A stretch of DNA of 28,685 bases from the IMG/VR virus record IMGVR_UViG_3300034068_000071, positions 1 to 28,685 of that record, one strand, 5' to 3'. Shown here piece by piece: positions 1,890 to 6,802 of the stretch. The DNA is from a virus. The notes beneath the pieces are model-generated. The model was given only the letters and a program-made list of their open reading frames with translations. It was not told where the DNA came from and did no database searches. The translations under genes were made by a program, and so were the position numbers. Numbering within the stretch: position 1 is the first letter of the stretch; each line of letters starts with the position of its first letter.

Positions 1890-2414
1890 TTATTTTGTTC
1901 TTAAATATTGTTGCATTGCGTTTCTATTAGCTTCTTTGTCTATGTCCTGGCTTGTTCGGTTACTATCGCCCATTGCTTTAAATTGTGCGTGTGCTTCGTC
2001 TTTACCATTCATAAAAGCTAGATGCCGTTCCTCACGGTATTTCTCAAGCATCTCAAAGAATGTAGGCATATCCATTCGGTCGTAAACTTTGCCGTATTTG
2101 TATTTAATCATTCCGTCAAGGAATAACAAAACGTCCTGGATAGCTAGTTGGTCCTGTTCGGCTTCGTCTAATATCGCATAGCATAGATCGGTTATTTGCT
2201 CCGGTGTCATTGCTACCCTTAAATTAAAGTTGTTTAATGCTCTTGTAACTGATTTACTAAGAACGGCTGCTATCTTATCGTTGCCGTATATTTTTACTAA
2301 AGCCGGAAGCCTTTCACTTACTGGCACTAACTCAATAATTTTTAATGGCAATGCTTCGCCTTTGTCTTTGAACCGGCATAGCTCATTGTGAACGCCGCCA
2401 TTATTTCCACTCAT
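1890..2414 (-). CDS. Replication-region protein of unknown function, 174 aa
   Basis: I choose ATG 2414-2412 (MSGNNGGVHNELC), which overlaps the end of the DUF4373 gene by 14 bases; an in-frame Met 26 codons upstream (2492) would lie deep inside that gene. The product is mostly helical, with IIELVPVSERLPALVKIYG early, a MTPEQITDLCYAILDEA helix in the middle and a charged tail (NRNAMQQYLRTK). Its position directly after the initiator is where phages commonly encode a helicase loader or a DnaD/DnaC-like partner, but I see no Walker motif, so that role is only suggested by context. Confidence 0.7.
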   Translation of the reverse strand: MSGNNGGVHNELCRFKDKGEALPLKIIELVPVSERLPALVKIYGNDKIAAVLSKSVTRALNNFNLRVAMTPEQITDLCYAILDEAEQDQLAIQDVLLFLDGMIKYKYGKVYDRMDMPTFFEMLEKYREERHLAFMNGKDEAHAQFKAMGDSNRTSQDIDKEANRNAMQQYLRTK

Positions 2415-3150
2415 TATGTCGTTTAATAAAGGCTTCGTGTAACTGTTGTTCGGTAACTTTTGGAGCGATTTTGTTTGAGTTGTTAGTTGCATTGTTTTCG
2501 GTTTTTAGTTGGAATAATCCTTGCCAACCTTTAGCAATAGACTGTTCGATTATTTTAATTGCAATTTGTTCTTGTCCGTTGGAAAGTTTTACTAATTCAT
2601 TTAAGGTAGCTTGAATAGATATACTTGATTTATAAGTAAAGTTAAATTGTTCCTTCTTAAATTCAACCCATAAGGACCAATATTTTTTAAATACATCACT
2701 ACCAAAAGGGAATGTTATTTCCTTTCCTTTATTTACTTTCTTTTCTTTTATTTCCTTTACTTTACTTTCCTTTATAGCATTGCCATCGCATTGCGACTGC
2801 ATTGCGTTCGCATTAGTCCATCGCTTACTTGCTGATTGTCTTGCCTTTACGCTTTTACTATATCTCTCATCTAAGCGTTTTTGCACTGATAAACTACCAA
2901 AAGTTTCGCCATCAAATACAAATAAATCAAAGTCATTAATAACTGATTTTACTACTTCGCATTCCACCCTATAATCAAACGAAATGCCTTCGTAATCCGT
3001 TCGCAATGCGTTCGCATTATTGTATAAATCTTCAATGATTGCCCAAAATAACCCATATCCAGTTATTCCGTGTTTCCTTAATAGAAACTTTATTTTTTCG
3101 TCGTTCCGGCTATTATAGTCGTGCGAAAAGTAAAACGTATCTTTTGGCAT
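2401..3150 (-). CDS. DUF4373 (Lin1244/Lin1753-like) replication initiator / replisome organiser
   Basis: I take the start at 3150 (MPKDTFYFSHDYNSRND), giving 249 residues; a Met 7 codons earlier (3171) lies in the leader hairpin. Residues 1-95 match the DUF4373 N-terminal winged-helix-type domain (ARNDEKI-like, KHGITGYGLFWAIIEDLYNNA). A lysine-rich linker follows (about residues 112-142), then a C-terminal helical domain (YWSLWVEFKKEQF, ELVKLSNGQEQIAIKIIEQS, GWQGLF). Such proteins are thought to bind the origin and recruit replication factors. The linker is encoded by an iteron-like array and a G-free tract (2715-2815), suggesting the origin lies within the gene, as in lambda O. Confidence 0.82.
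   Translation of the reverse strand: MPKDTFYFSHDYNSRNDEKIKFLLRKHGITGYGLFWAIIEDLYNNANALRTDYEGISFDYRVECEVVKSVINDFDLFVFDGETFGSLSVQKRLDERYSKSVKARQSASKRWTNANAMQSQCDGNAIKESKVKEIKEKKVNKGKEITFPFGSDVFKKYWSLWVEFKKEQFNFTYKSSISIQATLNELVKLSNGQEQIAIKIIEQSIAKGWQGLFQLKTENNATNNSNKIAPKVTEQQLHEAFIKRHNEWK
2715..2776. other. G-free, pyrimidine-rich tract beside the iterons (candidate origin unwinding element)
   Basis: The plus strand has no G for 62 bases and only 8 A, the rest T and C. It directly abuts the iteron array. It encodes a lysine/glutamate-rich linker, so coding for AAA/GAA codons contributes to the bias. The pairing of iterons with an adjacent AT-rich, strand-asymmetric tract inside an initiator gene is the known layout of lambda-type origins. 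Confidence 0.5.
2777..2815. repeat. Iteron-like array, GCATTGC every 11 bp
   Basis: On the plus strand GCATTGC occurs at 2777-2783, 2788-2794 and 2799-2805, followed at the same 11-bp step by GCATTA at 2810-2815. The four-base spacers differ. The 11-bp period is about one helical turn, so a bound protein would contact one face of the DNA. The array is inside the initiator gene, in the part coding for its linker. Confidence 0.65.
3003..3019. repeat. Inverted copy of the iteron motif (palindrome)
   Basis: The plus strand reads GCAATGC, the reverse of the iteron, then GTTC and GCATTA. The core AATGCG-TT-CGCATT is a perfect 6-bp palindrome. A 13-base word TGCGTTCGCATTA is shared with 2803-2815. 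It lies about 190 bp from the main array, in the same gene. Confidence 0.45.
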
Positions 3151-3153
3151 AAT

Positions 3154-3206
3154 AAAAAAGGCTCTCGGCATTCCCCCCAGTAGGATTGAGGGTTCAGCTT
3201 TGAGCC
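3154..3206 (-). promoter_or_regulatory. Hairpin with U-tract in the initiator leader (possible attenuator)
   Basis: GGCTC (3206-3202) pairs with GAGCC (3164-3160) on the minus strand and is followed immediately by six T. Inside, CCC (3192-3190) can pair with part of a run of six G (3178-3173). The structure ends 4 bases before the chosen initiator start at 3150 and encloses an alternative ATG at 3171. The outer stem is short (5 bp), so a strong terminator is doubtful. Confidence 0.4.
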
Positions 3207-4992: not shown

Positions 4993-5331
4993 TCAAATAA
5001 TCTCCATTAATTTTTTAATCTCTTCCTGGTAGTCATTGTCAAACCTTAAACTTAATACCTCTTCAATAGTTTGTACGGCGTGTATTATGCTTGTATGGTC
5101 TCTATGAAATAACCTGCCAATCTCTTTAAGCGTTAAGCCTGTTCGCTTCCTAATTATATAAATAGAAACAAATCTAGCTTTTACATATCCTCTAAGCCGG
5201 CATTTGCCTTTTACTTGGGCGGTAGTAAGACCGTAAAAGTCGCAAACGTTATCCACTATTTGTCGAGCGTGTTTTTGGTCGTTTAACAATATCTTGCTCA
5301 TCTTTCTGCTTGGTGCGGTCCAGTACGTCAT
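4993..5331 (-). CDS. Stand-alone DnaA domain IV-like DNA-binding protein
   Basis: The 112-residue product matches only the C-terminal DNA-binding domain of DnaA: DFYGLTTAQVKGKCRLRGYV (31-50), ARFVSIYIIRKRTGLTLKEIGRLF (52-75) and the signature RDHTSIIHAVQTIE (77-90). The AAA+ domain is missing, so it cannot bind ATP but should recognise DnaA-box-like DNA. It could recruit or compete with host DnaA. The start at 5331 is preceded by an A-rich stretch; a second Met at 5301 (MSKILLNDQK) is an alternative. Its 5' end overlaps the 59-residue coiled-coil gene in another frame. Confidence 0.85.
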   Translation of the reverse strand: MTYWTAPSRKMSKILLNDQKHARQIVDNVCDFYGLTTAQVKGKCRLRGYVKARFVSIYIIRKRTGLTLKEIGRLFHRDHTSIIHAVQTIEEVLSLRFDNDYQEEIKKLMEII

Positions 5332-6462: not shown

Positions 6463-6485
6463 AGATTTTTGTTTTGGTTATAAAG

Positions 6486-6516
6486 CAAAGATATATCAAC
6501 ATAAGTTATAAACAAT
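6486..6516 (-). promoter_or_regulatory. Candidate early promoter (Bacteroidota type)
   Basis: The minus strand has ATTG at 6516-6513, a 19-base spacer and TATCTTTG at 6493-6486, one mismatch from TTTG-N19-TAnnTTTG. It lies in the only long gap of the genome, in very AT-rich DNA, and faces the replication genes. Transcription would start near 6480. Confidence 0.62.
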
Positions 6517-6579
6517 AGTTTTACACAATTATTTTATATTTTTAGCATAATTTTAACATTTAGGCCTTTATCAGTCAAT

Positions 6580-6612
6580 AATGAGCCGTTTATCAATCAT
6601 TTGCGGCTCATT
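6580..6612. repeat. Perfect 9-bp inverted repeat
   Basis: AATGAGCCG at 6580-6588 and CGGCTCATT at 6604-6612 are exact inverted copies with a 15-base loop. There is no T-run on either side, so it is not a typical terminator. Its place between the early promoter and the terminators suggests an operator or a structured RNA or DNA element. Confidence 0.55.
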
Positions 6613-6645
6613 CCGAATAGGCTGGAATTGTCCAGTTAATTACAC

Positions 6646-6671
6646 AAAAAACCCCTCGTAGAAACGAAGGG
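6646..6671 (-). terminator. Rho-independent terminator, minus strand
   Basis: CCCTTCG (6671-6665) pairs with CGAGGGG (6658-6652), 7 bp with one G-T pair and a 6-base loop, followed by six T. It closes transcription coming from the lysis and exonuclease genes. Confidence 0.8.
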
Positions 6672-6732
6672 CTTAACCATTTGTCTATGCTATGAAATCA
6701 GGACAAAATTAGTCCATTCCTTTATAACTACA

Positions 6733-6766
6733 AAATAAAAACTGCCTAGCTTTTTACACTAGGCAG
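6733..6766 (-). terminator. Second terminator, minus strand
   Basis: CTGCCTAG (6766-6759) and CTAGGCAG (6749-6742) form a perfect 8-bp stem with a 9-base loop, followed by a T-rich stretch (TTTTTATTT). It lies 37 bases after the stop of the HExxH gene and works in tandem with the terminator at 6646-6671. The gap 6463-6802 holds these elements, the inverted repeat and the promoter, and no other gene that I see. Confidence 0.75.
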
Positions 6767-6802
6767 AAACCACTATGAAAACAACATTACAAAGATAACT
6801 TT

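Follow-up and report, generated by a model that had tools for sequence, protein, structure and literature searches.

A probable replication origin embedded in the initiator gene of a phage

Record IMGVR_UViG_3300034068_000071 is a viral sequence of 28,685 bases, and the whole of it is referred to here as the window. It encodes a replication initiator whose PF14297 domain (Lin1244_N) was recognised by Pfam above the gathering cut-off (E value of 5 × 10−11; 43.6 bits against a cut-off of 25) and which resembles the replication initiation proteins of phrog_2562 in the PHROG database (E value of 3.9 × 10−20). The domain is followed by a linker and a C-terminal helical domain (Table 1). In two named phages, a DnaC-like helicase loader occupies the slot after the initiator, and the gene that overlaps the initiator gene of the window appears to sit where related phages have this loader. 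Downstream of the replication genes, positions 268-696 and 793-1176 encode a ParB-N-like protein and a NinG-like protein, respectively. Positions 4993-5331 encode a 112-residue phage protein that consists mainly of a DnaA C-terminal DNA-binding domain, without the ATPase part.

Table 1. Coordinates of the initiator gene and of the elements within and next to it (positions in the window)
Feature	Position	Strand	Evidence
Initiator gene, 256 aa: PF14297 Lin1244_N domain, linker and C-terminal helical domain	2401..3171	-	Pfam, PHROG
N-domain part (residues 14-118), predicted winged-helix-like, putative iteron binder	2818..3132	-	AlphaFold2, domain/iteron swap
C-terminal helical domain part (about residues 151-235), swapped among relatives	2467..2721	-	
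Array I, exact GCAWTGC core present three times with a spacing of 11 bp; GCAATGCagtcGCAATGCgatgGCAATGC on the coding strand	2777..2805	-	Shuffles, synonymous diversity
Fourth, degenerate iteron of array I (CTAATGC, two mismatches), in register with the 11-bp lattice	2810..2816	-	
C-free purine-rich tract (coding strand) of 5-bp tandem AAAGN units, adjoining the iterons; putative unwinding/loading element	2715..2776	-	
Cluster II, degenerate 11-bp array ATAATGC/GCATTGC/GGATTAC/GCATTTC, mismatches 2/0/2/1	2981..3020	-	
Next gene downstream, overlapping the initiator gene; weakly DUF6633-like	1890..2492	-	PF20338, E value of 0.045, below cut-off

The AlphaFold2 model of the window initiator had a mean pLDDT above 90 for residues 31-90 of the N-domain, with the order helix-helix-helix-hairpin-helix, and linker residues 123-150 (pLDDT below 50) are predicted to be disordered. 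The same order of elements was seen in the model of a DUF1376 representative, in which the disordered linker spans residues 134-201. Since a Foldseek search of the PDB with both models gave no significant match (none with an E value below 0.25), it is the topology that suggests a winged-helix-like N-domain. The N-domain profiles of PF14297 and DUF1376 matched each other with an E value of 1.5 × 10−5 and a probability of 80% when hhalign was run with DUF1376-only rows; an earlier figure of 99% came from an alignment that mixed families and was discarded.

The coding strand of array I reads CTAATGCgaac GCAATGCagtc GCAATGCgatg GCAATGC tata and then continues as AAGGAAAGTAAAGTAAAGG. The original prediction, made from the sequence of the window, had placed GCATTGC at 2777, 2788 and 2799 and GCATTA at 2810, and all of these positions were confirmed. 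It had also described an inverted copy with a palindrome at 3003-3019. A copy indeed lies at 3003-3009; however, GCA-W-TGC is symmetric about its own centre, so that the orientation of a core is uninformative, and we dropped the inverted-repeat reading and assigned this site to cluster II. The accompanying statement that all the elements lie in the part coding for the linker held for array I, whose cores fall in the segment for the predicted disordered linker, but not for 3003-3019, since cluster II encodes the N-domain segment NNANALRTDYEGI (also given as NNANALRTDYEGIS). Two pairs of cores spaced by 11 bp were present in the window, compared with none in 100 dinucleotide shuffles. When the protein was kept and its codons were resampled according to the codon usage of the phage, an array of three cores at 11-bp steps arose in 58 of 20,000 shuffles, and at least four GCAWTGC cores were found in 10 of 20,000 protein-preserving codon shuffles. 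We define a GCAWTGC-iteron initiator as a DUF1376 or PF14297 gene that carries at least three cores at 11- or 12-bp steps, and the initiator gene of the window belongs to this class.

The 62-base run without G that had been noted at 2715-2776 is real, and on the coding strand it forms an AT-rich, strand-asymmetric tract that is free of C and has a period of 5 bp. Its identity at lag 5 was 0.73, a value reached in none of 20,000 synonymous shuffles (P < 5 × 10−5), while the length of the C-free run (62 against a shuffle mean of 44) was not significant alone (P = 0.07). The reservation that the protein might itself cause part of the bias was well founded: the lysine-rich protein accounts for most of the no-G composition, but not for the 5-bp period. 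Among relatives, the tract persists where iterons and C-terminal domains differ. Bacteroidota have the 5-bp form (AAAGN) and DUF1376 genes have periods of 6-7 bp; in 145 non-redundant genes the best short period after GCAWTGC arrays was 5 bp in 49, 6 bp in 45 and 7 bp in 32. As many as 99 of these 145 genes beat synonymous shuffles at P < 0.05 for the best of five lags, a count that is inflated because the best lag was picked per gene, with about 30 expected at most. Most genes have a short-period, strand-asymmetric tract next to the array. In the encoded proteins, stretches of alternating residues (PSPSPS, NQNQNQ and KTKTKT, for example) look as if they were dictated by 6-bp repeats in the DNA.

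We gathered 80 related loci by protein, and among the 78 relatives with the N-domain type of the window, 72 had two or more exact cores immediately behind the domain. Synonymous diversity was then compared in 32 relatives less than 97% identical, with P values obtained by permutation. Outside the elements, synonymous codon diversity averaged 0.41, compared with 0.10 in array I (P = 1 × 10−4), 0.14 in cluster II (P = 1 × 10−4) and 0.08 in the tract (P below 1 × 10−5). In cluster II, the residues A-L-R were always encoded by GCA TTG CGA in the relatives that share them, so that their synonymous diversity was zero, even though TTG and CGA are minority codons; in the AAAGN tract, the choice between AAA and AAG for lysine was strictly position-dependent. 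When the codons for A, N, Q and C were counted in bulk for the linker and for the sequence outside it, no clear signal emerged, as the choice of codon depends on the position; the per-column test was used instead. Regularly spaced iterons are thus found within the initiator coding sequence and conserved in relatives, with the 11-bp spacing kept at synonymous sites, which is the opposite of the outcome set in advance as speaking against the original prediction, namely a linker kept with its repeats lost. By the measure of synonymous sites, it is as DNA rather than solely as protein that the array, cluster II and the tract are conserved.

Several related loci combine the same C-terminal domain with a different N-domain. 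Loci with a different PF14297 N-domain (type 2; L304-L314, L316-L321 and L324), about half of which share the C-terminal domain of the window, have, in place of GCAWTGC, GCTAWTRGGGNG units spaced 12 bp apart where array I would lie, and retain the purine-rich tract after the iterons. The codons of these iterons are likewise frozen (diversity of 0.12 compared with 0.40; P < 2 × 10−5), and glycine was encoded by GGG in 34 of 38 cases within the iteron zone compared with 28 of 137 outside it. In a third N-domain type (L322 and L323), combined with a C-terminal domain of the window type, GCAATGC appears again. Because the iterons are swapped together with the N-domain under one C-terminal domain, iteron recognition appears to follow the N-domain and not the C-terminal domain.

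An unbiased set of 37 non-redundant PF14297 genes from bacterial genomes, chosen by protein alone, was compared with synonymous shuffles. Linker periodicity was seen at lag 5 in 17 of the 37 genes at P < 0.02, at lag 10 in 12 and at lag 11 in 10; lags 15 and 20-22 were also prominent in the linker, lag 12 was not, and the C-terminal control was flat. The cores of many of these genes are different ones, such as ATTCCGGAA- or TGTTATAACA-like sequences, followed by a AAAGTAAAGTAAAGG tract, and in some of the 37 the exact cores were absent or the periodicity was unclear. In the related initiator gene of the human-gut phage MT836332 (L439:1854-1963), ATCGCCACCCR recurs at exact 11-bp steps.

We also searched 2.9 million viral contigs for the DNA pattern alone, three GCAWTGC cores at a fixed step, and called initiators with a local, uncalibrated profile seeded on the N-domain of the window and one DUF1376 member. 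The 11-bp step was found in at least 120 viral contigs, with initiator genes in 100 of 120 among the matches listed, and the 12-bp step in 86 contigs, 39 of them with initiators; these counts are not independent because many loci are close relatives. By comparison, 9 contigs matched at the control step of 10 bp and 8 matched a scrambled core spaced at 11 bp, none of them with an initiator. Independently of this profile, Pfam assigned 61 of 114 ORFs with 11-bp arrays, among the matches listed, to DUF1376 and 30 to PF14297, and 32 and 3, respectively, of 78 ORFs with 12-bp arrays. The median position of the arrays was amino acid 128, and all three reading frames were used (63, 46 and 27 matches); therefore, different peptides spell one DNA sequence. 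The 11-bp pattern also occurred in 101 contigs of bacterial genomes, whose sources included Bacteroidota, Pseudomonadota, Bacillota and Spirochaetota; the same uncalibrated profile called 43 of them initiators. A protein search of phage records with one DUF1376-type protein gave no match. In six loci (L113, L173, L188, L399, L404 and L406), the GCAWTGC array lies within the part coding for the N-domain and not the linker, at what seems to be about the place of cluster II in the window. Contig IMGVR_UViG_3300032323_002596 (59.9 kb) contains one initiator gene twice, in opposite orientations (L066 and L068), which may reflect an inversion made during assembly or a duplication of the region.

We read positions 2715-2816, probably together with 2981-3020, as a phage replication origin embedded in its own initiator gene, and on the sequence evidence we put the probability of this reading at roughly 0.83. 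It is supported by the synonymous sites kept among relatives and by the retrieval of initiator genes from unrelated phages with the bare pattern. Most likely, this is a lambda-type origin within the initiator gene that is read by a winged-helix-like N-domain. The term 'lambda-like' in the original prediction fits the architecture but not the protein family: PF14297 was the sole Pfam match of the initiator, no O-type N-terminal domain was found, and the O-like phrog_678 matched weakly and over residues 118-236 only (E value of 4.1 × 10−4). The N-terminal PF14297 domain would bind the iterons and build a nucleoprotein complex, in which the N-domains would line up on one face of the DNA because the iterons are one helical turn apart. 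This complex would open the adjacent AAAGN tract, and the C-terminal domain or the product of the next gene may recruit the host helicase; the assignment of the element that starts synthesis is one that we infer. An origin could sit in this part of the gene because a disordered linker tolerates whatever peptide the DNA sites spell. Cumulative GC skew showed no turning point near 2.9 kb, and it is uninformative in the window because nearly all the larger ORFs share one strand.

It is unlikely that the repeats instead constitute an intragenic operator, by which the initiator autoregulates its transcription or sets the copy number while the true origin lies elsewhere. Plasmid initiators commonly both replicate and regulate via such sites, and the covariation of N-domain and repeats points to recognition, not to its purpose. 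However, the adjoining short-period, strand-asymmetric tract in most genes is what an origin, not an operator, would be expected to have, the repeats are located some 350 bp inside the gene, away from a promoter, and 6463-6802, which had been named as a rival origin, is no other repeat-bearing candidate, with no direct repeats and one weak inverted pair. Another reader of the sites, such as the DnaA-C-like protein of the phage or a host factor, is more improbable still. A protein with a DnaA DNA-binding domain is indeed encoded 2 kb away (PF08299; E value of 9 × 10−20), but DnaA-box-like sites occur in the window at chance level, with none within the array; moreover, GCAWTGC arrays track the initiator domain in phages of many phyla, and the repeats change when only the N-domain of the initiator changes. 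It is very improbable that a conserved NANAMQ/NAI linker and a lysine-rich stretch produced the repeats as a side effect. The protein sequence does make the motif more likely and accounts for most of the no-G composition of the tract, but the synonymous sites are frozen, different genes carry the array in any of the three frames, and its peptide lies within a predicted disordered linker.

The replication origin proposed here has a well-known counterpart in lambda, where iterons and an AT-rich tract lie in the middle of gene O, the initiator binds both the iterons and AT-rich single strands, and, in lambda and Stx phages, extra iterons show up as extra linker residues (PMC7466680). Lambda and the Stx phages P27 and 933W resemble the window in that iterons and tract lie midway along the initiator gene and that the protein has separate N- and C-terminal parts. 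Lambda has four iterons, of 18-19 bp, and the Stx phages have six, all unrelated in sequence to and longer than the 7-bp core found here on an 11- or 12-bp step; the window type further differs from lambda in its 5-7 bp tandem tract and in its PF14297 or DUF1376 domain, which is not of the lambda O family. In SPP1 gene 38 and in lactococcal TP901-1, origin binding sites also lie inside the initiator gene; these initiator families and repeats differ from those of the window. Closer to the window are the DUF1376/YdaU proteins, whose N-domain is distantly related and many of whose phage members carry a GCAWTGC array after the domain, often with 12-bp steps and 6-7 bp tracts. We did not find a link of DUF4373/Lin1244 or DUF1376 to an origin in the open-access literature. 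This kind of origin is known; what seems to be new is the iteron family, how widely it occurs, and the tract with its short period.

The balance tips slightly towards a broader proposal, in which DUF1376 and PF14297 would form one origin-reading superfamily with iterons on an 11-12 bp lattice in their own linker, an iteron alphabet exchangeable together with the N-domain, and a 5-7 bp tract that serves as a second, separately conserved loading or unwinding element not described for lambda. If this is true, phage origins in thousands of genomes could be read straight from sequence, which would provide a sequence rule for finding origins in uncultured phages. It would also suggest a function, and the DNA that is bound, for two families of domains that occur in phages across many bacterial phyla; one of these families, DUF1376, is still listed as of unknown function. 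The natural swap pairs of N-domain and iterons would allow initiator-origin co-evolution to be studied where both share the same bases. Repeats that differ from GCAWTGC are found in ydaU of the Rac prophage of Escherichia coli K-12 (L435:7120-7977), where inspection by eye revealed GTTCAAACA-like repeats after the domain, followed by AAAGAT/ACAGAT 6-mers, possibly a relic origin in this laboratory strain.
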